64,000 nt of DNA, from contig NZ_NXIF01000032.1 of NCBI RefSeq assembly GCF_002837275.1, forward strand, positions 1 to 64,000, in the 5' to 3' direction. The notes under the pieces were generated by a model. The model saw nothing but the letters and a program-made list of their open reading frames with translations, was not told the origin of the DNA and made no database searches. Positions within the stretch are counted from its first letter, which is position 1. Each line of letters starts with the position of its first letter. Of the stretch, positions 7,438-63,540 are shown one piece after another. The translations under genes and the position numbers were made by a program. This DNA comes from Malaciobacter halophilus (GTDB taxonomy: Bacteria > Campylobacterota > Campylobacteria > Campylobacterales > Arcobacteraceae).

Positions 7438-7962
7438 TTAATATGCAAAAAATACTAAATCTCTCTTATTTTCTTTTGCAAAATCAAAAATAGTGTTAAC
7501 TTCATCTATATAATAATCTTCATGTGCATAAGATGGCTTAGTTAAAAATATCTTTTTAAAAGTATCTAAATCTTCATAAGCAATACTATAATAATCCGCA
7601 CCTTCAAAATCTTTATCTGCTGGAATTTGTAAAAAAGCTGTTCTTGGAGTATCATCAATAGCATCTTCTAAATAACACATAAACTCTTCATGCTCAATCA
7701 ACTCTCCATATTTTTGACAAAACATCTCATATAAAGAGTTGTAAATCCAAACATTATCATCTTCACCATAAGGCTTTGCATTTACTATTAAATCTAACCT
7801 ACTTTCAAAATCGCTAAGATTTACATCAAAGTCTTCAGCTAACTCTTCAATCTCATCAGAGAATTCACTCATAAAATCACTAATAAAATCTTTATCTTTA
7901 CAACCATATATCTCTTTAATCTTTTTTCTATCTACTGCATACGCAATAACTTCACTACTCAT
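7438..7962 (-). CDS. Hypothetical acidic protein
   Basis: A 174-aa, strongly acidic protein starting MSSEVIAYAVDRKKIKEIYGCKD, with no signal peptide or membrane segment. I do not recognise a family with confidence. The N-terminal YAVD pattern recalls small DUF7691-like proteins, but that is only a weak impression. It is the leftmost intact gene of the island, on the same strand as all other island genes, followed by a bulged hairpin at 7374-7417. A role in defence or toxin inhibition is possible but unsupported. Confidence 0.6.
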   Translation of the reverse strand: MSSEVIAYAVDRKKIKEIYGCKDKDFISDFMSEFSDEIEELAEDFDVNLSDFESRLDLIVNAKPYGEDDNVWIYNSLYEMFCQKYGELIEHEEFMCYLEDAIDDTPRTAFLQIPADKDFEGADYYSIAYEDLDTFKKIFLTKPSYAHEDYYIDEVNTIFDFAKENKRDLVFFAY

Positions 7963-8110
7963 TTAATATCCTAAAATTAATTTAATTATTTATTCTATTA
8001 TATAATTTTTTAATTAAAATTAGTTTTTGTATGAGCTATATTTGGGGGATTTAAAAATATCATTTACTAGACTTAGAATACTTAAAATTCAAAAGTATCT
8101 ATAAGCAAAT

Positions 8111-8133
8111 AACTTTTATCTGACTCTACTTTT
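8111..8133. repeat. Island intergenic repeat, diverged copy
   Basis: TTATCTGACTCTACTTTT, immediately 3' of the 8140 gene (minus strand), matches the element found twice after the CRISPR array (TTATCACCTGACCCTACTTTT-like) apart from a 3-nt gap and one substitution. See the finding on island repeats. Confidence 0.45.
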
Positions 8134-8139
8134 AGTTTG

Positions 8140-8487
8140 TTAGAGAATCTCGAGCAAAACTTGGAAATCCCAAGCTTTTGGTTGAATAGGAAAAGAATAA
8201 ACTTTACCTGGCTCTTCTTCTGCTTCCACTTTAAATTTTCTGCCATCAGTGAGCGTCAGACAATACTCTAAACCAGTAGTATCAATATCTTCTAAATACC
8301 CTAATTCTGGATGATAAATAGACAATATTTTACAATTAACATTTACAATAGGGATACCTGAAATAAATCCACTGTGTATTTCTAAAGGATTGCTATCTTG
8401 AATACAACTAAGAGCAGTAACTTCTCCAACTTTAAGAGCTTGATCCAATTCATACCAATAAAATCGATATTTACAAAGCTTCTGCAT
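8140..8487 (-). CDS. Hypothetical protein of the island
   Basis: About 115 aa; I do not recognise it. It contains two Cys in ALSCIQDS and VNVNCKIL, a Gly-rich central strand pattern and an acidic EAEEEPGK loop, and looks like a small beta-rich soluble protein. The frame extends to 8514, but a GGGAGG ribosome site lies 11 nt before the ATG at 8487 (MQKLCKYRFYW), which I prefer. It sits between the toxin-antitoxin pair and the 174-aa ORF on the same strand, with dyad or repeat sequences on both sides, as an integron cassette would. Confidence 0.6.
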   Translation of the reverse strand: MQKLCKYRFYWYELDQALKVGEVTALSCIQDSNPLEIHSGFISGIPIVNVNCKILSIYHPELGYLEDIDTTGLEYCLTLTDGRKFKVEAEEEPGKVYSFPIQPKAWDFQVLLEIL

Positions 8488-8524
8488 CTGTATGATTTCC
8501 TCCCTTATTACCAAATTCTCTAAA

Positions 8525-8633
8525 GGGGCAGTGATAACAATAACCCTAAACCTACCCCACCTATTCTAAAATAATCATAGTAAGAGTATTTTATTATTAA
8601 TAAATATCCTATCCGGTGCTAGGTTTGTTATCA
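8525..8633. repeat. Long imperfect palindrome after the toxin gene (attC-like)
   Basis: TGATAACAA at 8532-8540 is inverted as TTGTTATCA at 8625-8633. Inside, AAACCTA (8548-8554) pairs with TAGGTTT (8620-8626) and CACC (8559-8562) with GGTG (8615-8618). The 102-nt dyad covers the toxin stop codon and ends 45 nt before the next gene. Size, asymmetry and overlap with a stop codon are attC-like, but GTTATCA does not fit the GTTRRRY core. The left part (8525-8544) is also an inverted copy of the island repeat. Confidence 0.5.
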
Positions 8634-8956
8634 GTTTTAATTAATCGTTGAAATAAAATATCTTCTAAATTTCTACTTGAATCTACCATTAATAAAATAT
8701 ATGCTTTTTCATTTTCAATTTTATATATTACTCTCCATCTTTGATAGATAACTTCTCTATACTTTAAAATTCCAATTTGCTGAAGTTCTGGTACAATTCT
8801 CTTTCTCTGGGGAAAGTAATATAAATTATTACACTCTTCTTTTATAGCAAAAAATATTTTTTTTGCTGTTTCTATACTATCTGTTTTAATATATTCAATA
8901 ATTGATTCCAAATCAAATTCAGCACTTTTTGTCCAGATGACTTCAAAGCTTTTCAT
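8609..8956 (-). CDS. RelE/ParE-type toxin
   Basis: A 115-aa protein with the RelE/ParE fold pattern: VIWTKSAEFDLESIIEYI (first helices), then ECNNLYYFPQRKRIVPEL, and a core strand YREVIYQRWRVIYKI followed by a hydrophobic strand ending MVDSSRNLEDIL. ParE members poison gyrase and RelE members cleave mRNA on the ribosome; the sequence does not decide which. It begins 6 bp after the antitoxin gene, antitoxin first, as in classic type II modules. Its last codons (KPSTG) lie inside the palindrome described separately. Confidence 0.85.
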   Translation of the reverse strand: MKSFEVIWTKSAEFDLESIIEYIKTDSIETAKKIFFAIKEECNNLYYFPQRKRIVPELQQIGILKYREVIYQRWRVIYKIENEKAYILLMVDSSRNLEDILFQRLIKTDNKPSTG

Positions 8957-8962
8957 TGAAAA

Positions 8963-9235
8963 TTATCCAAAGAGTTTTTTTTCTAAATTATTAAACATAT
9001 CTTCTTGACGGATAATATGATTATTTTCAATATCATTTTCACTTTGAACAATTAACTTTAACAAATTTAATGAATTTTGCATATTTTCGTAGCTCTTAAT
9101 ATCTTGAATAACTGCTTTTGCCTCACCATTTTGTGTGATAATAACTGATCGTTGATTTTCATTTACATTGTTTATTACATCAGCTGTCTTCGATTTTAAA
9201 TAGCTAATTGGTTTTATATCTTGACTTAAATGCAT
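8963..9235 (-). CDS. Phd/YefM-family antitoxin
   Basis: A 90-aa antitoxin with the Phd/YefM DNA-binding N terminus (DIKPISYLKSKTADVINNV, then RSVIITQNGEAKAVIQDI) and a C-terminal helix that would wrap the toxin. Such proteins neutralise the toxin and repress their own promoter as a complex. An upstream GTG at 9268 is in frame, but an AAAAAGG ribosome site sits 8 nt before the ATG at 9235 (MHLSQDIKP), which matches family starts. It is only about 120 bp from the repeats that end the CRISPR region. Confidence 0.88.
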   Translation of the reverse strand: MHLSQDIKPISYLKSKTADVINNVNENQRSVIITQNGEAKAVIQDIKSYENMQNSLNLLKLIVQSENDIENNHIIRQEDMFNNLEKKLFG

Positions 9236-9356
9236 AGGTGCAACCTTTTTAAGATATCGTTTTAACACAGTACTATATTTGAATTTAATTTAGTATTAAA
9301 TGTTTTTTGTTAATAATTATTTTAATATATTTTATAATACTATTATAAATTTTTTA

Positions 9357-9468
9357 CTATTCTGTTATTAAGTTATCGTTATCGCCTGACCCTACTCTCC
9401 AATTATATCTCCAATTATAAAATCATTTCTATTCTACTATTAAGTTATCGTTATCACCTGACCCTACT
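9357..9468. repeat. Two 40-bp direct repeats between antitoxin gene and CRISPR array
   Basis: Copies at 9357-9396 and 9429-9468 differ at about three positions and share TTAAGTTATCGTTATC and CCTGACCCTACT. They are spaced 72 bp apart. Related copies occur after the 8140 gene and, inverted, at 8525-8544. They do not resemble the CRISPR repeat. Confidence 0.8.
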
Positions 9469-9480
9469 TTTCTACTTTTC

Positions 9481-9977
9481 TACTTTTTCCCCCTACAAAC
9501 GAGGGTATAGTCCAACAAGCGACCTTTTAGGGATGCCTTCAATAAAGTTTTATTCCCCCTACAAACGAGGGTATAGTCCAACCACTTTACTAGCTGTTCC
9601 ATCAAAAGTTCTGTTTTATTCCCCCTACAAACGAGGGTATAGTCCAACAGTTATAATACTTTTAATAAGTTATTCTTTGTTTTATTCCCCTACAAACGAG
9701 GGTATAGTCCAACAATGTAACAAAAGTAACTGATAGATTATATGTTTTATTCCCCCTACAAACGAGGGTATAGTCCAACTAATTATGAACATTCAAGAGA
9801 ATCAACTTTGTTTTATTCCCCCTACAAACGAGGGTATAGTCCAACTAATTATGAACATTCAAGAGAATCAACTTTGTTTTATTCCCCCTACAAACGAGGG
9901 TATAGTCCAACAACTCAACCATCTAAAACAGAAATATATCAGTTTTATTCCCCCTACAAACGAGGGTATAGTCCAAC
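9481..9977 (-). CRISPR. Type VI CRISPR array, 8 repeats and 7 spacers
   Basis: Eight repeats of 36 nt start at 9481, 9547, 9613, 9679, 9744, 9810, 9876 and 9942. All seven spacers are exactly 30 nt. The plus-strand form begins GTTTTATTCCCCC and ends GGGTATAGTCCAAC. The repeat at 9481 has four changes at its plus-strand 5' end, and the one at 9679 has lost one C (35 nt). Spacers 9780-9809 and 9846-9875 are identical. The degenerate end is the low-coordinate one, and a TATAAT facing the array lies at 10048-10053, so I infer transcription on the minus strand, codirectional with the cas13 gene. Read that way the repeat is GTTGGACTATACCC...GGGGGAATAAAAC, with a C-rich/G-rich hairpin and AAAAC end like type VI-A repeats. 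Confidence 0.97.
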
Positions 9978-10075
9978 CGATATTTTACAAAAGGCTAACC
10001 AAAGAGCTTCTTAAATGTTTTACCGCATAAAAAACAGGAAAATATCTATTATATTGAGTATTTTTAGTCCATTTT
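9978..10075 (-). promoter_or_regulatory. CRISPR leader with -10 element
   Basis: The 98 bp between the cas13 stop and the first repeat on the minus strand contain TATAAT (reverse strand, 10048-10053), about 70 bp before the array. It is AT-rich and has no repeat remnants, as expected for a leader. Confidence 0.5.
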
Positions 10076-12595
10076 TTACTTATTATAACCCTTTTTTATT
10101 TGTTCTTCTTTTGCTATTGCATTTTTTATTTTTTCCTCATCTTTTGTTTCCCCTATAGCTTCGATAACTTTTTGTTTTAAAAGCTCTATCACTTTGAGTT
10201 TATAAATAAGATAATAATCATTTGGAACTAAGCTCTCTTTTTTGTGTATGTCAGCTATTTTACTTTCTTTTTGACTATGTATATTTAAAGACTTTAGATA
10301 TTGTACTGTTTTCATAGTAAAATCATTGATAGGATTGTAGTGAAGAATCTCTTGCATTTTATGCTCTTTTTGAAGATAGTTTACTATCTCTTCTCTTTGT
10401 GCAAATATCTCATTATTTTCAAAAGCTTTTAACATATTTTCAATATTTTGATGGGCAATATCATTTCTAGTTTGTTTGATGTATTGTGTAGATTTTTGAT
10501 TTTGTTCGTAGTTTGTATTAATCATAAAAGTTTTAAATAAAAGTGTTGAAAAATTATAATACCCTCTAAATTTCAAATCATCTCTTTTTGTTATATCTGA
10601 TAACTTCTCAGTGATACTATTTTTATCTGCATATGTTAAGAGAGCATATATTTCAAAATCCCCTATAAGTTTATTTAAATTTATATAATACTTAATAACA
10701 GGTATTACCAAATGTATATCAAACTCATCTTGGTTGTGGGAGATTTCAAGACTTTTATAAACACTTTGCCAACGATTTCCTTTCTCATAAAAGAAGTGCT
10801 CTTTAGTATTGTAAAGTGTATTATGACTTAAGCTGTAGTTAAAAAGTTGTAAACCTCTTAAGTTTTTGGCTAATATTTTTAGCTTCAAAGAAAAAGAGTT
10901 TTGTGTATCTTCTATGCTTTTCTCATCCTCTTTTGTATCGTTTGTGATATTTTTAGTATGATGATATATTTTTAAAATAAACCCAACAAACTCACCTTGG
11001 AGCTCTTTTGGAATAAAAAGATATAAGAGAGTGATAATTTGTAAAAGAGGACTCTCTTTTACAAGTTCTTCTAAAGTTTCATTTTCTATTAAATTGAAAA
11101 TATTTTTTTGTTTTGTTTCCTCTTTTTTAGTTTTTTTATTGAAAAACTTTACACAAAAGTGGAAAAATCTTTTTTCAATAAAAGTAGATTCAAAATACTC
11201 TTTTAACTTCTCATTCGAACTATTTTTAAATACTTTTATCTTCTGTTCTTTTTTTACATCAAGTGTAAATTTATCATTAAAGTTTTTAAAATTATAGTTA
11301 TACTCATTTGCTATAAATCCAAAAGCAAGTCGCAATTTTACTTCAAGTCTATTAAGAGAGTTTTGTTTGGTAATCTTATTCATCTCATCTTTTAGTTTTT
11401 GGAGCTCATCATTATAGTTTTTAAGTTTTTGTCCATTTGGTTTCTCTTGCGATTCCTCTTTTTGTTTTTCTACCACTAGATTTTTATGTTTGATATAGAT
11501 TTTCTTATACTCTTTGTTTGAGTGTATATCTTCAAAAAAATCAATTTTTTTAGTAGCTAAATAGCTTTTTAACTCTTCATTTGGCACTCCATCTTTTGAT
11601 AAAAAACTATTTATAAGTTTATTAAAAGCTGGTTTCTTTTGAGATATTTTTATATAAAAATTATGAATCTTAGAAAAATTACTCTCTTTTTCATCAAAAA
11701 GAGTAAGAGTGTCACTATCTTCTATATAGTTGTTTTTTTCTTGATAGTATTTCTCCTCTTTTTCTTGAAGCATAGTTTTTATAAGAGAAATAGTACTTAT
11801 ATCAAATCTATTTTTATCAAGTTCATCATCAAAAAACTTTTGGATAAAATCAAAATCAAAATGTGCCAAAGCATGGCGAAAATCACTTAATATTTTTTGA
11901 ATCTTTAAAAAATCATACTTTATCGTATCAGTTTTTTTAATAAACTGATTTAAACTTTGATTTTTAAAATCATCATTGAGGCGATAAACAATATATTTAA
12001 CTACTTTATCTTTATTTTGTTCGATATTTAAACTATAAAAGTTTGTTCCTTTTGGTAAAAGAGGGCTAAAAAATTCTTCTATAAACTGAAAATAAAACAA
12101 CATCTCATTTTTGAAATCGATGTAGCGTTTTATTTTATATATATCTTTTGAGGTAAGAGTATCAAATCCCGATATTTGTTTATATCTCATTAAAAGTGTA
12201 TCATTTGGAAGTTCTCTCTCTGTACTTTTAAATCTTTTTTCTTTCTCATTATCTCTTAGATATTTATCCGTAATAGTTACCACATATTTTGCTTGTGTAA
12301 TTTTTCCATCTCGCCTTTGTTTTGAGGCTCTTACATAAGCAGTTATCTCATAATTGTCAAACTCTATTTTTTGATTATCTTTGATAGTATGTTCTATACC
12401 ATTTAAAAGTATTTTTTTAAACTCTACAATATTATCCCTTATCTCCATATCTTGAATAGTTATCTTATCAAGTCGTGCTAATTTGAGGTATTTTACTTTT
12501 ATCTCTTTGATTTTGTTTTCATCATAATCACTTATGATGATACTAGGAATTGAGTTTCTATTTGAGGGTTTTTTGATTTTTTCTATACTATTCAA
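10076..12595 (-). CDS. Compact Cas13-like RNA-guided RNase (two HEPN domains)
   Basis: 839 aa, with two RX4H HEPN catalytic motifs: R240-HALA-H245 in SDFRHALAHFDFDF, and R710-NDIA-H715 in KQTRNDIAHQNI. Cas13 effectors use two such motifs to form one RNase site that cuts target RNA and then bystander RNA. The C-terminal EILHYNPINDFTMKTVQYL resembles, from memory, the region after HEPN2 in Cas13a. About 455 residues lie between the motifs, with a Lys-rich linker (370-415). Typical Cas13a are 1,100-1,400 aa and Cas13d about 930-970 aa, so this is small. The start is TTG at 12595, 8 nt after AAGGA. No cas1, cas2, csx27/28 or WYL gene is nearby. The array follows on the same strand. Subtype: nearest VI-A by repeat and C terminus, but possibly a separate compact branch. 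Confidence 0.9.
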   Translation of the reverse strand: MNSIEKIKKPSNRNSIPSIIISDYDENKIKEIKVKYLKLARLDKITIQDMEIRDNIVEFKKILLNGIEHTIKDNQKIEFDNYEITAYVRASKQRRDGKITQAKYVVTITDKYLRDNEKEKRFKSTERELPNDTLLMRYKQISGFDTLTSKDIYKIKRYIDFKNEMLFYFQFIEEFFSPLLPKGTNFYSLNIEQNKDKVVKYIVYRLNDDFKNQSLNQFIKKTDTIKYDFLKIQKILSDFRHALAHFDFDFIQKFFDDELDKNRFDISTISLIKTMLQEKEEKYYQEKNNYIEDSDTLTLFDEKESNFSKIHNFYIKISQKKPAFNKLINSFLSKDGVPNEELKSYLATKKIDFFEDIHSNKEYKKIYIKHKNLVVEKQKEESQEKPNGQKLKNYNDELQKLKDEMNKITKQNSLNRLEVKLRLAFGFIANEYNYNFKNFNDKFTLDVKKEQKIKVFKNSSNEKLKEYFESTFIEKRFFHFCVKFFNKKTKKEETKQKNIFNLIENETLEELVKESPLLQIITLLYLFIPKELQGEFVGFILKIYHHTKNITNDTKEDEKSIEDTQNSFSLKLKILAKNLRGLQLFNYSLSHNTLYNTKEHFFYEKGNRWQSVYKSLEISHNQDEFDIHLVIPVIKYYINLNKLIGDFEIYALLTYADKNSITEKLSDITKRDDLKFRGYYNFSTLLFKTFMINTNYEQNQKSTQYIKQTRNDIAHQNIENMLKAFENNEIFAQREEIVNYLQKEHKMQEILHYNPINDFTMKTVQYLKSLNIHSQKESKIADIHKKESLVPNDYYLIYKLKVIELLKQKVIEAIGETKDEEKIKNAIAKEEQIKKGYNK

Positions 12596-12865
12596 TTAAC
12601 ATTTCCTTTTTCTATATAACTATTTAATAACAATACATTATATATATTTATTACTTAATTATCTAAATAACTAGACATTCACATAAAACATCTTTAAAAT
12701 AGGTATTTAATGAAAAATTATTACACAATGTAATATTTTTGAATTGATTTTTTATTCTTAATTATAATTTAAATATATACTTTTTGTCTAGATAACTGTA
12801 ATAACAATACATTATGTATGTTAATTGAAAAAAAACATAATAATACTACATTTTAGGAGATACAA
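12596..12865. promoter_or_regulatory. Divergent control region between cas13 and integrase remnant
   Basis: A 270-bp AT-rich gap. A 17-nt direct repeat, TAATAACAATACATTAT, occurs at 12625-12641 and 12799-12815. The first copy includes the reverse-strand TATAAT (12637-12642) of the cas13 promoter; the second ends in the palindrome ATACATTATGTAT (12807-12819) before the integrase remnant. CTAGAC (around 12670) and GTCTAG (around 12787) are inverted to each other. In an integron this is where attI and the cassette promoter would lie. Confidence 0.5.
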
Positions 12866-13231
12866 ATGGGTAAAAAATTACTTGATATAATGAGGGACAA
12901 AATAAGAGTAAAACATTATAGTATTAAAACAGAAAATATTTATATTTACTAGCAAAAAAATATATTTTATTTCATAATAAACGACATCCTAATACTATGG
13001 GAAAAGAAGAGATAGAAGAGTATTTAACTTAATTTAGCAAAAAATCAAAACGTATCTCCTACTACGCAGAACCAAGCATTTAATGCACTGTTATTTTTAT
13101 ATGAACAAGTTTTAAATATATCACTAAAAGATGAAAATATTCAAGCCTTAAGAACAAAAGAGATAAAGTATATTTCTATAGTTTTAACTATAGGTGAAGA
13201 CGGAAGAGAAGAAAATCAACGATTGAGCTGA
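12866..13231 (+). pseudogene. Integron-type tyrosine integrase, N-terminal remnant
   Basis: After AGGAGA, an ATG opens LLDIMRDKIRVKHYSIKTEN, the canonical start of IntI-like integrases, then meets a TAG where Trp is expected. Shifting frame gives NKRHPNTMGKEEIEEYLT, and shifting again (from 13031) gives NLAKNQNVSPTTQNQAFNAL, then LFLYEQVLNISL and a TGA at 13229. One in-frame stop and two frameshifts therefore interrupt the SAM-like core-binding domain, and the whole catalytic domain (R-H-R-Y) is absent. It is divergent from cas13, the orientation of intI relative to cassettes. Confidence 0.85.
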
Positions 13232-13249
13232 TTTTATTACCTGACGCAG

Positions 13250-13278
13250 TATCGGCTTTATTTTCAAATAAAGCGATA
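13250..13278. repeat. Strong hairpin 1 between integrase remnant and guaA
   Basis: GCTTTATTT (13255-13263) and AAATAAAGC (13266-13274) pair perfectly, extended by TATC (13250-13253) with GATA (13275-13278) around one bulged G. It may be a terminator or part of a mobile-element end. Confidence 0.6.
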
Positions 13279-13295
13279 GATTTTGTTTAGATTGC

Positions 13296-13345
13296 ACTAG
13301 ATTTAGATGAAGATGTACTAAAGGTACCTCAAATCTAAATCTAGT
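13296..13345. repeat. Strong hairpin 2 between integrase remnant and guaA
   Basis: A perfect 13-bp inverted repeat, ACTAGATTTAGAT (13296-13308) and ATCTAAATCTAGT (13333-13345), with a smaller GTAC/GTAC stem in the 24-nt interior. This two-tier shape recalls folded recombination sites, but core GTTRRRY boxes are not seen. Confidence 0.6.
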
Positions 13346-13353
13346 ACAAGATG

Positions 13354-13376
13354 AATAAAAGCTATTCGCTTTTATT
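13354..13376 (-). terminator. Likely guaA terminator
   Basis: A 9-bp stem AATAAAAGC/GCTTTTATT with loop TATTC covers the guaA stop codon. It lacks a long T run, so it may be a weak terminator. Confidence 0.5.
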
Positions 13377-14907
13377 CCCACTCAATAGTTGCAGGTGGTT
13401 TACTTGAAATATCATAAACAACTCTGTTGATTCCATCAACTTCGTTGATGATTCTTCTACTTATTGTTTCTAAGATATCATGTGGAATATGTGCAAATGT
13501 CGCTGTCATTCCATCTGTTGCTTCTACTATTCTTACACAAACAGTATTATCATAAGTTCTATTATCACCCATAACACCTACTGATTTTACATTTAATAAA
13601 ACTGTAAATGCTTGCCATGTAGTTTCATAATACCCAGTAGCATGAAGTACATCAAGCATAATAGTATCTGCTTTTCTTAAAAGTTCTAAATCTGGTTTAT
13701 TCACATCACCCATGATTCTAATAGCAAGTCCAGGACCAGGAAATGGATGTCTTCCAATCATATCTTTTGGAAGTCCAAGCTCTAATCCTAACTCTCTTAC
13801 TTCATCTTTAAAAATCTCTCTTAAAGGTTCAATAAGCTCAAAAGTCATCCAATCTGGTAATCCACCAACATTATGGTGAGATTTGATTGTTTTTGATGGT
13901 CCTTTAACTGATACTGATTCAATTACATCTGTATAAAGTGTACCTTGAGCTAAAAACTCTATTCCATCATGTTTTTTTGCTTCTTCATCAAATACTTCAA
14001 TAAAAGTTTCACCAATAATTTTTCTTTTTGTTTCAGGGTCAGATACCCCTTTTAACTTATCTAAAAATATATCAGTAGCATCAACAGTAATTAAATCAAT
14101 TCCTCTTGTTTTAAACATTGCTTCAACTTGTTCTCTCTCATTTGCTCTTAAAAGACCATGGTCAACAAATACAGGAACCAATTGTTCACCAATAGCTTCA
14201 GCTAAAAGTGTAGCAACAACAGAAGAATCAACTCCTCCACTTACACCACATAATACTTTTTTATTTCCAACTTTATCTTGAATCTTTTTTATTTGCTCTT
14301 TTGCAAATGAACCCATATTCCAAGTTGATTCACAACCACAAATATGTTTTGCAAAGTTTTTAAGTAATTTTGCACCCTCTTTTGAGTGATAAACTTCAGG
14401 GTGAAATTGAAATGCATAAACAAGTCTATTCATATCAGCAATGGCTGCATATGGTGAATTTTCACTAGTTGCGATTTTTTCAAATCCTTCTGGAATTTTT
14501 TCTACTCTATCTCCATGAGACATCCATACAGTTTGACCATCAGTTGTATCTTTAAAAATATCACTTTCTTTCTCAAATTTTAATTGTGCTTTTCCATATT
14601 CATGATGGTCTGCTGGGATTACACTTCCTCCAAAATGTTGAGAAATTAATTGCATCCCATAACAAATACCTAAAATAGGAAGACCAAGATTAAAAATCTC
14701 TTCATCTGGATGATATGCATCTTTTGCATAAACTGAAGCTGGACCACCACTTAAAATAATCCCCTTTGGAGTTCTAGCTTTAATATCTTCAATACTCTCA
14801 CTAAATGGAACGATTTCACTATATACACCTGACTCTCTTAATTTTCTAGCAATTATCTGTGTATATTGACTACCAAAATCTAATACAACAATTGGTACAT
14901 GTTTCAT
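13372..14907 (-). CDS. guaA: GMP synthase (glutamine-hydrolysing)
   Basis: 511 aa, full length. The class I glutamine amidotransferase domain comes first, with nucleophile Cys82 in GICYGMQLI and the His-Glu pair in FHPEVYH. The ATP-pyrophosphatase domain follows with the P-loop SGGVDSS, then the dimerisation domain ending in the conserved [12 protein letters not shown]. It converts XMP to GMP using glutamine and ATP. Its 3' end is the right border of the accessory island. guaA 3' ends are known insertion points of genomic islands, though I found no direct repeat of the guaA end on the far side. Confidence 0.98.
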
Positions 14908-56209: not shown

Positions 56210-57094
56210 TTGCAATTTATAAAAGCAAACAAGTACTTAATTACAATAGTACTTGTAACCTCATTTTTTATTCTACTAACATTTTATTTTTTAAAAAATC
56301 TAAACAATAGTGATGATTTATTAAATAGATTAGAAAACTCTTTAAGTACAACAAAAAACCTTTTTAATGAACAAAAAAGATATGCTTTATCTTTATCTAT
56401 TCTTTTAGCAGAAGATAAAGAGATAATAAATAGCTTTTTAAAAAATAATAGAGAAGAGAGTTTTGATGTAATAAATAAAAAAATCAATAGATTAAAACAG
56501 TTACAAAATAGTAGTTTTGAAGTGCAAATACACAATAGTGATATGACAACTTATTTAAGAAGTTGGGATATTAGTATTAAAGATATACCTCTTAGTAGTT
56601 TTAGACAAGGTATAGTAAAAGTAAAAACAGATAAAAAACCAATTGTATCAATAGAACTTGGTAAAAGATTAAATATAAAAGCTATCTCTCCTATGAAAAA
56701 AGATGGTAAATTTATAGGTTCTATTGAAGTAATAGTAGGTTTTAGCTATCTATCAAAACAACTAAAACAAAAAGGCTACTCTTTATATGTATTGTTAGAT
56801 AAAAAACATTTAAATATTGCAACAAAATTAAAAAATAGACCTAAAATAAAAAACTATATTTTAGTAAATAAGGAAAATATTAAAAATTTAGAAAACTTAG
56901 ATTTAGAAAATCTAAAAGATTATGGTTATATATCTACAAAAAAACACTCTTTTGCATATTTTTCATATTATGATTTAAATAATAAGCATTTAGGATATAT
57001 TTTTACTTCTATAAAAAATAAAAATCATATTAATTTAAATAACTCTTTTGATTATGAAAGAGTTGATAATAGCACAAAGGTTGAAATAAAATGA
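56210..57094 (+). CDS. Membrane-anchored periplasmic Cache-domain protein
   Basis: 294 aa. One N-terminal membrane helix (about residues 9-28) and a periplasmic double-Cache-like domain with a helical stalk (SLSTTKNLFNEQKRYALSLS), RSWDISIKDI, and a strand set ending FAYFSYYDLNNKHLGYIFT. There is no second membrane helix and no cytoplasmic output domain, so it cannot signal alone. The start codon is TTG. Its stop overlaps the response regulator start by 4 bp, which suggests it serves as a separate sensor for the kinase encoded two genes on. Confidence 0.75.
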   Translation: MQFIKANKYLITIVLVTSFFILLTFYFLKNLNNSDDLLNRLENSLSTTKNLFNEQKRYALSLSILLAEDKEIINSFLKNNREESFDVINKKINRLKQLQNSSFEVQIHNSDMTTYLRSWDISIKDIPLSSFRQGIVKVKTDKKPIVSIELGKRLNIKAISPMKKDGKFIGSIEVIVGFSYLSKQLKQKGYSLYVLLDKKHLNIATKLKNRPKIKNYILVNKENIKNLENLDLENLKDYGYISTKKHSFAYFSYYDLNNKHLGYIFTSIKNKNHINLNNSFDYERVDNSTKVEIK

Positions 57095-57756
57095 GACTTT
57101 TACTACTTGAAGATGACTTAGAATACAAACTTAGTATTAAAGACTATTTAGAGTCTTTAGGATATGAGATTGATGACTTTGAAGATGGAGAAGATGCCTT
57201 AAGTGCAATACACGAAAATAAATACCATTTACTAATTTTAGATATAAGAGTACCTAAAATGAATGGATATGAAGTAGTAAAAAGCATAAGAGAAAATAAT
57301 GATAATACTCCTGTTATTTATATAACTTCATTAACTGATATAAATAATTTAAGTTTAGGTTATGAACTTGGATGTAATGACTATATAAAAAAACCTTTCT
57401 CTCCTAAAGAGTTAAAATATAGAGTAGAACAATTAATAAAACTTTTTTATGCAAATGAAAATAGTAAAGAAATAGAGCTAAAACCAAATTTTACATATGA
57501 CATATTAAAAAAACAGTTATTTAAAGACTCAATACCAATAATGCTAACAAAAAAAGAGACGGAAGTTGTTTTTTGTTTAGTATCAAATAAAAATCAATTT
57601 ATAAGTATAGAAAAGCTAAGAAGCGAAGTTTGGGAAGACAAATATATTTGTGAAGCAGATATAAGAGTTTGTATAAAAAAAATTAGGGATAAAACTTCTA
57701 AAGAGTTTATAGTAAATCAAAGAGGGATAGGATATAAAATTGTTAGAGAAGAGTAG
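57091..57756 (+). CDS. OmpR/PhoB-type response regulator
   Basis: 221 aa. The receiver domain has acidic residues at the N terminus (LLEDD), phospho-acceptor Asp51 in LLILDIRVPKMNGYE, and Lys in YIKKPFSPKE. The C-terminal winged helix has the recognition region SEVWEDKYICEADIRVCIKKI (in part: EADIRVCIKKI) and RGIGYKI. It is a DNA-binding transcription regulator. The operon order sensor-regulator-kinase with overlaps predicts that it is phosphorylated by the next gene product; tsdA is the nearest candidate target. Confidence 0.92.
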   Translation: MRLLLLEDDLEYKLSIKDYLESLGYEIDDFEDGEDALSAIHENKYHLLILDIRVPKMNGYEVVKSIRENNDNTPVIYITSLTDINNLSLGYELGCNDYIKKPFSPKELKYRVEQLIKLFYANENSKEIELKPNFTYDILKKQLFKDSIPIMLTKKETEVVFCLVSNKNQFISIEKLRSEVWEDKYICEADIRVCIKKIRDKTSKEFIVNQRGIGYKIVREE

Positions 57757-58876
57757 AAACTTTATATTTAAAATATCTCTTTTTTATACTGCAATATTTT
57801 TTATTTTTATTGCCATACCAACATATTTTTATACTAACTTAGAATTAGAAAATTATAAAAATAATCAAAATAGAATATTAATAGAACATGCACAAAAAAT
57901 ACAAAGAGCTATTTATGATTTTTCAAACTCAAAAAGCAATACTTTTAATTTTCCTAAATCTTTCAAGTTTGAAGCAACTTTACTTACAAATGAAAAAAAA
58001 ATCATCTATAAAACAAGAAGTGTTAATATAAAAAAAGATTCAAAAATGAGTATAGAGATTGAATTATCAAATAATAGATTAGGTGCAAGATATTTAAAAG
58101 TTGAGAAAAACATCTCTTACAAAGAGGTATATTTAAAAATCTTAGTTCTTAGTTTATGTATAGGACTTTTTATTTTTATCTCAATATATTTAATTATTAA
58201 AGCTAGTATTGAACCATACAAAAAAGCCAATGAATATCTTGATGCTTTTTTCAATGATGCTATGCATGAATTAAAAACTCCTTTAGGAGTAATTCAACTA
58301 AATTTAGAGATTTTAGATGAAAAACAACCAGATACTAAAGAGTTAAATAGATCAATCAATGCTGTAAAAAATCTTTTTTTAGTATATGAAGATATTGAGT
58401 ACTTAATAAAACAAAAAAGTGTAAAATATAATAAAGAAAAAGTAGATTTTACATATTTTTTAAAACAAAGAGTTGACCAGTTTGAAAGTCTTAGCACTAC
58501 TAAAAACTTAAATTTTATCTTAAATATTAAAGATAATATTACTATTTATATTAATAGAACTCATTTACAAAGAATTATTGATAATACAATTTCAAATGCA
58601 ATAAAATACTCATATAAAGATACAAATATAACAATAGATTTAAAAAAAGATAAAAATAATAATATAATTTTTGGTGTACATAATTTTGCAAATCCAATAA
58701 AAAATAAAAAAACAATTTTTAACAGATACTACAAAGAAAATCATATAAAAGGGGGCTTTGGTATTGGTTTAAATATTGTAAAAAATATTTGTGAATTAAA
58801 TAATATCAAGATTACTCTAAACTCAACACAAGATGATGGAACAGTTTTTTCTTACATATTCTTAAATAATTCTTAA
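57740..58876 (+). CDS. Sensor histidine kinase
   Basis: 378 aa. TM1 at about residues 11-31, a short periplasmic loop of about 95 residues, TM2 at about 132-154, then the dimerisation helix with phospho-acceptor His176 in AMHELKTPLG, an N box DNTISNAIKYSY, and a G box GGFGIGLNIVKNI. There is no HAMP or PAS domain, so ligand sensing probably comes from the periplasmic loop or from the adjoining Cache protein. It starts with a TTG that overlaps the regulator gene by 17 bp. Confidence 0.92.
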   Translation: MLEKSRNFIFKISLFYTAIFFIFIAIPTYFYTNLELENYKNNQNRILIEHAQKIQRAIYDFSNSKSNTFNFPKSFKFEATLLTNEKKIIYKTRSVNIKKDSKMSIEIELSNNRLGARYLKVEKNISYKEVYLKILVLSLCIGLFIFISIYLIIKASIEPYKKANEYLDAFFNDAMHELKTPLGVIQLNLEILDEKQPDTKELNRSINAVKNLFLVYEDIEYLIKQKSVKYNKEKVDFTYFLKQRVDQFESLSTTKNLNFILNIKDNITIYINRTHLQRIIDNTISNAIKYSYKDTNITIDLKKDKNNNIIFGVHNFANPIKNKKTIFNRYYKENHIKGGFGIGLNIVKNICELNNIKITLNSTQDDGTVFSYIFLNNS

Positions 58877-58918
58877 TTTGTACTATTAAAAGTAAACATA
58901 AAAGTAACTTTATATTTA

Positions 58919-58924
58919 TATAAT
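58919..58924 (+). promoter_or_regulatory. -10 element for tsdA
   Basis: TATAAT at 58919-58924 lies 26 bp before the tsdA ATG, with AAAGGAG as ribosome site. Confidence 0.5.
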
Positions 58925-58949
58925 TCCTTATCATTTAAAAGGAGCTACC

Positions 58950-59897
58950 ATGATTAAGAAAAAAATGATTGCTGTAACAGCATTATTTACTCTACTTTCA
59001 TCATTTACATATGCAGCACAAGATATGACTGCACCAAAAGAGTACCCAAAAGGAGAACTTGGTAAATTAGTGAAACTAGGTGAAGATATTATGAATAATA
59101 CAGATACTCACCCACTAACAAAAGATTTTGTAGGGAACAAACTACAATGTAAAAGCTGTCACTTAAAAGGTGCAGATGGTAAACCAGGTACAGCAGGAGG
59201 TATCTCTAGTTGGATAGGTACAGCAGCAGCTTTTCCTGCATGGTCTAAAAGAGAAAAAACAATTCAAACACTTCAAGATAGATCAAATAACTGTTTTATG
59301 AGAAGTATGAATGGTAAAAGACCAATTATTGATAGTGAAGCAAGTGTAGCTATGGCTGCATATATTACTTGGTTATCAGAAGGTAAAAAAATCAAAATGA
59401 ATGAAAAAGGTCCTTGGAGTGAGCATAATACTAAGTTATATCCAAAAGCAGTAAAACACTTTAAGAAGATTCAAAAAAAAGCCACTCATGAAAACTATTT
59501 AGCAGGAAAAGAGATTTATAAAAATCAATGTGCATCATGTCACGGTGCAAATGGTGAAGGTGTAGCAGCATTTCCACCATTATGGGGTAAAGATGCAAAT
59601 GGAAACTGGTTAAGTTATAATACTGGTGCAGGTATGAGTAAATTAGATAAAGCTGCAGCTTGGGTTAAATCAAATATGCCTTTAGGTCAAGGTAACAGTA
59701 TGAGTGACCAAGATGTTGCAGATGTGGTTTTATATATGAATGCACAAGAAAGAGCATCGTTTGACCTTAAAAAAAGACTTCTTCCAAGAGAACAAATGGG
59801 TTATTATAACTCTAAAGTATTAGAAGAAAAACATACAGTTGAAAGTAACTTTAAGGCTTTAGGACTTAATTTAGAAGAGATTAAAAACGGTAAATAG
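58950..59897 (+). CDS. tsdA: Diheme thiosulfate dehydrogenase / tetrathionate reductase (TsdA)
   Basis: 315 aa. Signal peptide (residues 1-22, ending TYA), then two cytochrome c domains with heme motifs CKSCH (67-71) and CASCH (194-198). NNCFMRSMNG places Cys115 where TsdA has its unusual axial thiolate ligand to heme 1, the main evidence for TsdA over other diheme cytochromes. Met243 (SNMP) is the likely heme 2 ligand. TsdA joins two thiosulfates to tetrathionate; in Campylobacter jejuni it works as a tetrathionate reductase. It follows the sensor operon after 73 bp with its own promoter. Confidence 0.9.
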   Translation: MIKKKMIAVTALFTLLSSFTYAAQDMTAPKEYPKGELGKLVKLGEDIMNNTDTHPLTKDFVGNKLQCKSCHLKGADGKPGTAGGISSWIGTAAAFPAWSKREKTIQTLQDRSNNCFMRSMNGKRPIIDSEASVAMAAYITWLSEGKKIKMNEKGPWSEHNTKLYPKAVKHFKKIQKKATHENYLAGKEIYKNQCASCHGANGEGVAAFPPLWGKDANGNWLSYNTGAGMSKLDKAAAWVKSNMPLGQGNSMSDQDVADVVLYMNAQERASFDLKKRLLPREQMGYYNSKVLEEKHTVESNFKALGLNLEEIKNGK

Positions 59898-61611: not shown

Positions 61612-63540
61612 CTAATCATGTACAAAATTGTTTTTTCTAACTTCATTAGCAATTTGATTAGACATGTTTTCAACTGTTTTTACAACTTCATTTGTCTGTG
61701 TTGCTATTAATGCATTTTCTTGTGTAGTTTTATCAAGTTGAGAAATAGCACTATTTATTTGCTCTAAACCTTTCATCTGTTCATTTGAGTTATAAGTAAC
61801 TGTTTCAACTATTTTTGTTGTATGCATAATATTATCATTTAGACTTTCAAAACCTTTATACATTTGTTCAACTACTTCTTTTCCATTTGTTGTACTAATA
61901 GTAGCACTATCTACTAAATCTTTTATTTTACTTGCTGCTTGAGCACTTCTATTTGCAAGATTTCTAACTTCTTGTGCAACTACTGCAAAACCTTTACCCG
62001 CTTCACCAGCTGTTGCTGCTTCTACTGCTGCATTTAGACTTAAGATATTTGTTTGAAAAGATATTTGGTCAATAATAGTAATTGACTCTATTATTGCTTG
62101 AACTTGATTATTTATATCTTCCATTGAGTTTGTTGTTTTTCTTGATAACTCTTTTCCTCTTGATACTTCATCTTTTAAGCTACTTGAATTAGTTGCTAAT
62201 TCATTAATATTTGAACTATTTTCTCTCATTGTTTGAGTTATCTCTTCAAGATTTGCAGCACTTTGCTCTAAAGATACTGCTTGTTCATTTGCGCTTGTTG
62301 TTAATCTAATCATATTAGAAGATAATTTATTTGAACTACTTTTTAAAGTTTCGCCATTATGTAAATTAACATTTAACATCTTTGAAATTTCAACTCCAAG
62401 ATTATTTACCCCACTCATTAGTGTACACAAATGTCCCTGACATGACATATTTGTTACTTTTGTAAAATCTCTTTGCTCATAAGATTTTAAGACATCAATA
62501 GTATGCATAATAATATTTTCTAAATTTGTAATCATTGTATTAAGATTTTGTGTTAATTGATTTATTACTGTATTTGATGTTTTTGCTTCTACTTTATTTG
62601 ATAAAATCCCTGAACTAACATCATTAACTACTTTAGTAACATCTTCTAAAACCAAATTGTCTTGTTCTATTGTTTGTTTGATTTTTTTAATATTTTCATT
62701 TATTTGTTTTGTCATTATTCCTATTTCATCTTTTGTTGTTACTTCAATTAACTCTACACTTTTTTTCTCTTTATTAAGAAAAGATAAGAAAGATAATAAA
62801 CCTTTTTCAAAAACCTCTAAAGGTTCAATTAAAGAAACCTTTGAAATATAAGATACAATTAAAACTAACACAATTAATATTGCAAATACAATTGAAACTA
62901 ATGTTATAATTAAAGTATTTACATCTTCGTCAACTCTTTTTTCAATTTTAGTTACTTTTTGTTCAATATCATCAAGATAAATACCTGTAACTAAAGTCCA
63001 ATTGAACTTATCAATACTTTTTGAAAATGCCATTTTCTTTATAAGTTTATTTGTATTTGGTTTTTTATAATAATATTCAACAAAATGATTATCATCATTT
63101 GCACTATTTATTAAAGCTTCTCTAAAAGCAAAACCCTTAATATCCTCTTTTTTTATATCTGTTTTTTGTCCATTAAGTTGTGGTTTTGTTCCATGAAAAC
63201 CAAAATAGAAACCATCATCTTTTTTTTCATATGCAAAGAAATATCCACTTCCATCTAAAAATCTTGCACTTGAAGCTACTTTTATAATCTCTTCTCTTGC
63301 TTCTTGCTTAGTTTTACTATTTTTAATAATCTGTTCTGCTATTGTGTGAATAGTCATAATTTGATTTTTTAGTAACTCTTTTTTTTCATTTACCACTGAG
63401 TTTTCAAAATCTTTAATAGTTTCCTCACTATTTTTATATGTTAAACTAACTGTTATTACAGTAGTAATTAAAATTGCAATAAACACTGGTAAAACTACAA
63501 GTGTCATCAATTTACTTTTTATGCTGTTAAACATCGCCAT
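61612..63540 (-). CDS. Methyl-accepting chemotaxis protein (sCache_2 sensor)
   Basis: 642 aa. TM1 at about residues 12-33, a single periplasmic Cache_2 domain (GSGYFFAYEKKDDGFYFGFHG in part: YFFAYEKKDDGFYFGFH; FNWTLVTGIYLDDIE), TM2 near 208-232, a HAMP-like linker, and a signalling tip [20 protein letters not shown], which shares nearly all residues with the two receptors at 22-26 kb. Cache_2 receptors usually sense small organic acids. The ATG at 63540 has an ideal AGGAGG six bases upstream. Confidence 0.93.
   Translation of the reverse strand: MAMFNSIKSKLMTLVVLPVFIAILITTVITVSLTYKNSEETIKDFENSVVNEKKELLKNQIMTIHTIAEQIIKNSKTKQEAREEIIKVASSARFLDGSGYFFAYEKKDDGFYFGFHGTKPQLNGQKTDIKKEDIKGFAFREALINSANDDNHFVEYYYKKPNTNKLIKKMAFSKSIDKFNWTLVTGIYLDDIEQKVTKIEKRVDEDVNTLIITLVSIVFAILIVLVLIVSYISKVSLIEPLEVFEKGLLSFLSFLNKEKKSVELIEVTTKDEIGIMTKQINENIKKIKQTIEQDNLVLEDVTKVVNDVSSGILSNKVEAKTSNTVINQLTQNLNTMITNLENIIMHTIDVLKSYEQRDFTKVTNMSCQGHLCTLMSGVNNLGVEISKMLNVNLHNGETLKSSSNKLSSNMIRLTTSANEQAVSLEQSAANLEEITQTMRENSSNINELATNSSSLKDEVSRGKELSRKTTNSMEDINNQVQAIIESITIIDQISFQTNILSLNAAVEAATAGEAGKGFAVVAQEVRNLANRSAQAASKIKDLVDSATISTTNGKEVVEQMYKGFESLNDNIMHTTKIVETVTYNSNEQMKGLEQINSAISQLDKTTQENALIATQTNEVVKTVENMSNQIANEVRKNNFVHD

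Follow-up and report, generated by a model that had tools for sequence, protein, structure and literature searches.

A detached Cache-domain protein, a HAMP-less kinase and an OmpR-type regulator form a conserved module with predicted control of tsdA in Campylobacterota

How might a bacterium control a gene for an enzyme that interconverts thiosulfate and tetrathionate, and why would the histidine kinase encoded beside it be accompanied by a separate Cache-domain protein? The question is raised by a locus of Malaciobacter halophilus, at positions 56210-59897 of a 64,000-nucleotide stretch of contig NZ_NXIF01000032.1; the whole stretch is called the window here. The first-pass annotation, made from the sequence alone, had described at this locus a Cache protein without an output domain, an OmpR-type regulator and a kinase lacking HAMP, followed by tsdA, and had suggested that a sulfur compound is sensed. 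Open reading frames and Pfam matches located all four genes as described, and the promoter region of tsdA added two further elements:

56210..57094, + strand: Cache gene (TTG start, 294 amino acids; dCache_3, with an N-terminal membrane anchor, a periplasmic double Cache domain and no output domain)
57091..57756, + strand: OmpR/PhoB-type response regulator (221 amino acids; Response_reg and Trans_reg_C in Pfam)
57740..58876, + strand: histidine kinase without HAMP (TTG start, 378 amino acids; HisKA and HATPase_c in Pfam)
58894..58908, + strand: putative regulator site, with AC cores 11 bp apart (AAAC at 58894-58897, TAAC at 58905-58908)
58919..58924, + strand: -10-like TATAAT, ten bases past the second half-site of the repeat
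58950..59897, + strand: tsdA, di-haem thiosulfate dehydrogenase/tetrathionate reductase (315 amino acids; cytochrome c domains and SoxA-TsdA_cyt-c in Pfam)

A separate sensor protein is encoded together with a kinase and a regulator, as in a three-component system. The gene overlaps of 4 and 17 bp had been read correctly, but they are not in frame, since the neighbours are read in different frames. The module is real, conserved and more general than the earlier proposal. We think it fairly likely, judging from the sequences, that it works as a three-component switch: thiosulfate or tetrathionate would be sensed by the detached Cache protein, and the kinase and regulator would act on a repeat in the tsdA promoter.

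The linkage of tsdA to the module was surveyed by two routes. For the window's family, 104 genomes were searched with a profile built from 12 Cache proteins, which split the matches cleanly, with 64 loci in 63 genomes scoring at least 246 bits and the other matches listed at most 154 bits. tsdA was present in 63 of the 104 genomes, in 62 of them together with the Cache gene (a second tsdA piece in genome G112 was left out of the count), and 62 of the 63 tsdA loci lay within 3 kb of the orthologous Cache gene (Fisher p = 2e-26, a descriptive value that ignores relatedness). In the exception, G118, tsdA runs from base 232 of a 4.4-kb contig. Close relatives with tsdA and no operon, which the first-pass annotation had named as evidence against its proposal, were not found beyond this one locus at a contig start. 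Genome G117 has the Cache gene without tsdA, on a contig that stops within the regulator gene.

The independent route was a scan of GTDB by the Cache alignment alone, in which 81 loci were confirmed and 80 kept. Titles of 79 of these named Campylobacterota or its genera or families (Arcobacteraceae, Sulfurimonas, Sulfuricurvum, Sulfurovum, Sulfurospirillum, Nitratifractor, Helicobacteraceae and others); the remaining locus, L117, comes from a metagenome-assembled genome (MAG) titled 'Proteobacteria bacterium'. Automatic calling found tsdA adjoining the module in 66 of the 80 loci, in three layouts (tsdA before the Cache gene in 29, tsdA after the kinase gene in 23, divergent in 14), and tblastn on the remaining 14 loci found it also in L108, L111 and L144. 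The total was 69 of 80, with no clear exception: the other 11 loci have a contig end at or near the side on which relatives carry tsdA, with about 200 bases left in L107 and about 240 in L119. Linkage is thus kept, whereas the fixed four-gene order is not. As many species occur in both sets, the family and GTDB counts are not independent samples.

The regulator very probably controls tsdA. A direct repeat with 11-bp spacing lies just before the -10 box upstream of tsdA in all three layouts, in the form AAAC-N7-TAAC in the window, TTACGCAAAAGTTACG in Sulfurimonas-type loci, GTTACTTTCAAGTTAC in Aliarcobacter and TTGACGATAAATTGACG in Sulfurospirillum. The direct repeats that were to be sought upstream of 58950 are therefore present and conserved, and the promoter that had been ascribed to tsdA itself is predicted from the TATAAT at 58919 behind the repeat. 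A promoter scan of the window gave no -35/-10 pair ending at this TATAAT (58919-58924). From 75 tsdA promoters of the first set, 3 shorter than 70 bp were dropped and the other 72 were thinned to 51 distinct ones. The repeat score of these 51 exceeded that of dinucleotide shuffles at spacing 11 only (z = 11.0, against -3.2 to +0.8 at the other spacings from 7 to 18), and, compared with 556 regions upstream of other genes at these loci, it was raised as well (p = 4e-9). A strict pattern requires two AC cores at 11-bp spacing with a -10 box behind them, and it was found in 31 of the 51 tsdA promoters versus 20 of the 556 other regions; a relaxed pattern that permits T for C was found in 41 versus 33, and one or the other in 46 versus 45. 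At other spacings from 8 to 15, either pattern was found in 1 to 11 of the 51, with the maximum at 15. When near-copies were included, module-linked tsdA genes carried the strict pattern in 46/72, the relaxed in 58/72 and either in 67/72 cases. Where tsdA had no module next to it or lay close to a contig end (20 genes tried, giving 18 upstream regions), the figures were 0/18 strict and 2/18 relaxed.

The signalling proteins appear equipped for phosphotransfer. H176, N282, N286, G339, G341 and G343 of the kinase are invariant in 53 aligned sequences, leaving the H-, N- and G-boxes intact, and D51 (the phospho-Asp), D8 and K101 of the regulator are invariant in 31. With a receiver bearing the phospho-Asp and a winged-helix Trans_reg_C domain, the regulator belongs to the OmpR/PhoB type. 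Hydropathy placed two membrane helices in the kinase (7-32 and 127-159), with a periplasmic segment of about 95 residues between them. A Pfam search of the kinase gave no HAMP match and, above threshold, only HisKA and HATPase_c; the PhnD-like sensor domain that marks ThsSR and TtrSR was not found. In a structure model of the kinase (mean predicted local distance difference test score, pLDDT, 85; predicted template modelling score 0.58), one helix spans residues 128-195 and leads from the second membrane helix straight into the phospho-acceptor part. The Cache protein has a single membrane helix by hydropathy (residues 6-31) and a dCache_3 domain (PF14827) over residues 37-248 (E = 4.6e-15; 56.3 bits against a gathering score of 25.7).

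These domains and the intact phosphotransfer residues, together with the linkage and with the repeat and its scarcity before module-less tsdA genes, are established at the level of sequence, and we infer the following mechanism around them. The membrane-anchored Cache protein would bind thiosulfate or tetrathionate in the periplasm and, through contact with the kinase, would control the small periplasmic domain of the latter in trans. The HAMP-less kinase would relay the signal along its single continuous helix to the phospho-acceptor part and phosphorylate the OmpR-type regulator. A regulator dimer would then bind the 11-bp-spaced repeat, which takes the position of a -35 box, and bring RNA polymerase to the tsdA -10 box, so that the presumed direction of regulation is activation. 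Signalling in trans across the membrane from a separate periplasmic binding protein is known from TorT-TorS-TorR and similar kinases, although TorT is a soluble binding protein, whereas the sensor in the window is a membrane-anchored double Cache domain.

We regard the Cache protein as probably the sensor for the kinase. It is unlikely that the kinase senses alone, through the membrane, redox state or its own periplasmic domain, while the Cache protein is a modulator or serves other partners such as chemoreceptors; the regulator would still control tsdA in that case. The periplasmic segment of the kinase does have conserved residues, P72, S74 and N112 being nearly invariant. However, the kinase has no Pfam sensor domain, the Cache gene accompanies the regulator/kinase pair in all three classes of module described below, and in 64 of the 76 loci called it shares 4 bp with the regulator gene.

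The module family comprises at least three classes, which lie next to tsdA, soxXYZAB and phsABC. The sox class has the order Cache-regulator-kinase-soxXYZAB and was found at 10 loci (L075, L076, L077, L093 and L212-L217). At L075, SoxX, SoxY, SoxA and SoxB scored above their cut-offs; an opposite-strand reading frame was called between the kinase gene and soxX at L212 and L217, and one where soxYZ is expected at L093. The latter locus (L093:3218-11691, from a MAG titled Sulfurovum) carries a sox-class and a tsdA-class module side by side in divergent orientation. Two further sox-type loci, L218 and L219, lie at contig ends. The phs class has the order PhsA-PhsB-PhsC-regulator-kinase-Cache (L072, L073, L074, L080, L312, L313 and L314), and all seven free-standing second Cache genes listed in the family, encoding 273-279 amino acids, sit in this arrangement. 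The window genome itself carries such a module (L072, G000:C101:14500-29000, at 7724-14246). PhsA reached 1080 bits with the NCBIfam model of thiosulfate reductase, whose cut-off is 694, and PhsB and PhsC gave their best matches, below cut-off, to the NrfC and NrfD models. Outside the phs arrangement, at locus L078, a molybdopterin oxidoreductase gene and two similarly sized genes precede those of regulator and kinase, and the Cache gene is reversed. In the regulator tree the phs sequences form one side of a branch (support 100), and 11 sox rows together with L079 form one branch (99).

In the sister classes, the strict repeat was found upstream of soxX in 6/10 and of phsA in 3/5 loci tested, compared with at most 1/10 and 2/5, respectively, at other spacings; the misses at L214 and L215 go back to an over-long reading-frame start, which placed the tested region inside the kinase gene. 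At L072 and L073, in the window genome and its nearest relative, an 11-bp repeat before phsA is seen by eye only (TTACATAAAATTTATAC at L072) and lacks the strict pattern. The sox cluster of the window genome is of a different lineage (SoxB 37% identical), and the genes called in its vicinity, on a contig of 20.6 kb, include no such module.

Thiosulfate is the sole compound common to Sox and Phs, as substrate, and TsdA, as substrate or product. Thiosulfate-type sensing by the module thus gains support from the sister modules beside soxXYZAB and phsABC, and we consider a sulfur oxyanion the likely ligand of the Cache protein. In the structure model of this protein (pLDDT 92.7), the best solved matches were ligand-binding sensor domains, DctB first (Z 15.2, root mean square deviation 4.0, 210 residues) and CitA next (Z 14.7, deviation 2.3, 129 residues for the distal part of the model); Foldseek and VIA-align compare fold only, and leave room for families outside their lists. 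CitA and DctB (PDB 1p0z, 2j80 and 3by9) share the fold but sense carboxylates as domains of kinases. When PDB sequences were searched by profile with the Cache protein, no Cache match came up. Residues R153, N155 and K157 are the better candidates for a thiosulfate signature: they are invariant in 67/67 tsd-class rows and differ in most rows elsewhere. K157 is also found in 3 sox-class rows, while R153 and N155 are retained neither in the phs rows nor in larger dCache_3 proteins. This pattern suggests a difference in ligand or affinity between the classes.

The tsdA product itself bears on the choice between the two oxyanions. Its best match in the PDB is a thiosulfate dehydrogenase (4wqc, E = 1.4e-36), and its two CXXCH haem motifs (C67-H71 and C194-H198) are invariant in 11 aligned sequences; two such motifs were also counted in TsdA of relatives. 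The predicted haem ligands, C115 for the active-site haem and M243 for haem 2, which were aligned to the Allochromatium vinosum TsdA chains, are likewise invariant in the 11. The residue before the haem-2 Met is N, matching N254 of Campylobacter jejuni TsdA, and among 61 tsdA genes read it was N in 53 and K in 6. The C. jejuni enzyme works as a tetrathionate reductase (PMC5146829), and with the same Asn in this position, tetrathionate becomes an equal ligand candidate for the tsdA class.

A general redox or electron-acceptor signal, such as sulfide, polysulfide or low oxygen, with tsdA as one output of a wider regulon, would be another way to account for the module, though an improbable one in our estimation. 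Polysulfide reductases are not cleanly separable by sequence and PhsA and PsrA are hard to distinguish, so polysulfide is a possible signal for the phs class; OmpR-type regulators, moreover, often have multiple targets. On the other hand, the Cache protein has the double Cache fold known from ligand-binding sensors, and the exact 18-mer of the tsdA site occurs only once in the window genome, at tsdA. A genome-wide search allowing up to 3 mismatches gave 33 matches, whereas the reversed control gave 49; without an excess over the control, no further targets can be named.

Two types of tsdA occur beside the module, with 32-39% identity to the window TsdA for the other type and 64-89% inside the window type. 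We compared them with a tree of regulator and kinase (82 rows, from 94 minus near-copies), built by a quick method with Shimodaira-Hasegawa-like approximate likelihood ratio support and containing several long branches. For each tsdA type, at least five changes are forced by the starred branches of this tree. Among the closest relatives of the window, the other tsdA type is present under nearly the same promoter in L062 (from the window's genus), L082 and L084, which points to replacement of the enzyme gene in place, with the switch retained. Inherited synteny without regulatory meaning is very improbable: the block from ftsY through tsdA to a hydrolase gene is indeed collinear in five same-genus relatives, but three gene orders and two tsdA types, on which descent alone was rejected, stand against it, as do the several families and the module-associated promoter repeat.

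Taking the three classes together, we see an even chance that they form a phylum-wide three-component family of the Campylobacterota, in which a detached, membrane-anchored Cache protein would be a sulfur-oxyanion receptor, for thiosulfate or in the tsdA class for tetrathionate, acting in trans on a HAMP-less kinase, and paralogues with their own promoter repeats would serve an oxidising (sox), a reducing (phs) and an interconverting (tsdA) pathway of thiosulfate.

A number of observations weigh against the switch proposed here or limit its reach. The linkage rule applies strongly to the window's family and to several other families, without being universal. An order-wide survey of 398 genomes, with the best 5 or 6 candidates per genome scored, gave 66 tsdA loci in 63 genomes outside the family, of which 36 were within 3 kb of a Cache gene among the candidates scored. 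The surroundings of 22 of the other 30 were inspected, and 19 of these apparently unlinked loci had no module beside tsdA: nine in families f10 and f13 (12 loci there overall), five in f6, and G138, G364, L195, L199 and L201, in the last three of which tsdA adjoins another regulator-kinase pair. The remaining three were one locus linked but below the cut-off (G257, L196) and two at contig ends (G394 and G420). Of the eight loci outside the inspected set, five come from genomes that carry a Cache module elsewhere, on a different contig (G254, G369, G244, G333 and G419); for G254 and G244, the contig with the module ends within or after the kinase gene. Within the sox class, L211 has a lone sox-type Cache gene, and L079 has a sox-type regulator/kinase pair away from sox, and its genome gave no SoxB match; this stray module (L079:7071-10016) has a 370-amino-acid partner without a Pfam match and lies next to the genes for ribosomal L25 and pth. 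In the window layout, the module lies 20 bp behind ftsY and may thus be transcribed from the ftsY operon, with tsdA read from its own promoter; expression of the module itself may then be unregulated.

Further points on the same side concern the repeat and the ligand. The perfect octamer of the window, AAAAGTAA (58888-58895 and 58900-58907), overlaps the putative regulator site and has a 12-bp period, against the 11 bp between the AC cores. Both patterns were defined after the promoters had been inspected, and in 10 held-out promoters they were weaker at 11 bp than in the first set (3 strict, 6 relaxed). At other spacings the strict pattern was found in 3 of the held-out promoters at 15 bp, in 1 at 14 and otherwise in none, and the relaxed pattern in 0 to 3; this set came from 40 regions, 6 of them without a start codon, with 24 of the remaining 34 dropped as near-copies of first-set promoters or of one another. 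The score alone is not specific, as the unlinked loci L199 and L201 (2/18) reach 9 at 11 bp. Sensors of amino acids, urate and histamine are also in the list of fold matches of the Cache model, where amino-acid and other sensors besides CitA and DctB reach Z 12-13. Finally, R117, W119, R132 and E149, which are kept across the module classes, recur in the dCache_3 domains of larger family proteins of 425-851 amino acids (the first three in 7/7, E149 in 6/7) and therefore carry little information on the ligand.

Two readings of these Cache residues were set aside. The four conserved residues were ruled out as a thiosulfate signature, since 6 or 7 of 7 larger dCache_3 proteins share them, and R117 as a counterpart of the citrate-binding arginine of CitA is not claimed, since the PDB profile search gave no Cache match.

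Among known systems, ThsSR of Shewanella halifaxensis is a thiosulfate-sensing regulator pair beside phsAB-psrC, with the same logic as the phs class; as far as the available text tells, it was found through a sensor domain within the kinase, whereas the window module has a separate Cache protein and a kinase without such a Pfam domain (PMC5408782). The same text gives Salmonella TtrS a PhnD-like sensor domain (PMC5408782). TtrRS of Vibrio parahaemolyticus is a two-component system that activates tsdBA and ttrBCA on tetrathionate; the available part of the report names no detached sensor, and the cluster holds ttrBCA and tsdB (PMC11293645). In the same phylum, PceS-PceP of Sulfurospirillum includes an OmpR-type regulator of a respiratory enzyme that acts on direct repeats, namely CTATW, with one site overlapping the -35 box (PMC7755780). 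It differs in the repeat sequence and in a kinase with seven transmembrane helices, and no Cache partner is mentioned in the text available (PMC7755780). Cache domains are mostly fused to outputs, and a 2016 census of 883 dCache_3 proteins, as excerpted, gave 327 kinases, 236 chemoreceptors and 248 c-di-GMP enzymes (PMC4822843). The module is a variant, apparently a new one, on already known three-component and sulfur-oxyanion sensing systems. Among the literature matches listed, none describes, by title and start of abstract, a three-component system with a Cache protein that serves tsdA, sox or phs, which is weak evidence of absence.

The accessible text of the Arcobacter butzleri genome paper states that the switch between sulfite oxidation and reduction 'remains to be identified' (PMC2147049), and that of a review on respiratory regulation in Campylobacterota treats thiosulfate and tetrathionate as electron donors or acceptors and names no regulator for tsdA or sox (PMC6682613). 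The module family is a concrete regulator candidate for three thiosulfate pathways at once, with a predicted operator, and offers a test case for signalling by a sensor detached from its kinase. It may also be a source of new thiosulfate or tetrathionate biosensors, the engineered ones mentioned in the available texts being ThsSR and TtrSR only.

Some minor features were seen along the way. The C-terminal tail of the Cache protein (window 57060-57094) is poorly folded in the model, although I293 is present in at least 90% of aligned rows; it may be a docking strand, or may merely reflect constraint from the overlapping regulator start. The dCache_3 domains of the 425-851-amino-acid proteins (L256-L262) have RxW and FR motifs in 7/7 cases, with RxWK in six, and are a related sensor group. 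At L199 and L201, tsdA is preceded by the different regulator-kinase pair and a 185-amino-acid partner; genes similar to PhsB, PhsC and, weakly, PhsA come after it, in what may be a cluster for tetrathionate reductase that has a sensor of its own. A dCache_2/sCache_2 chemoreceptor gene lies near tsdA in the window (61612-63540), and a similar one is present in L061 and L067.

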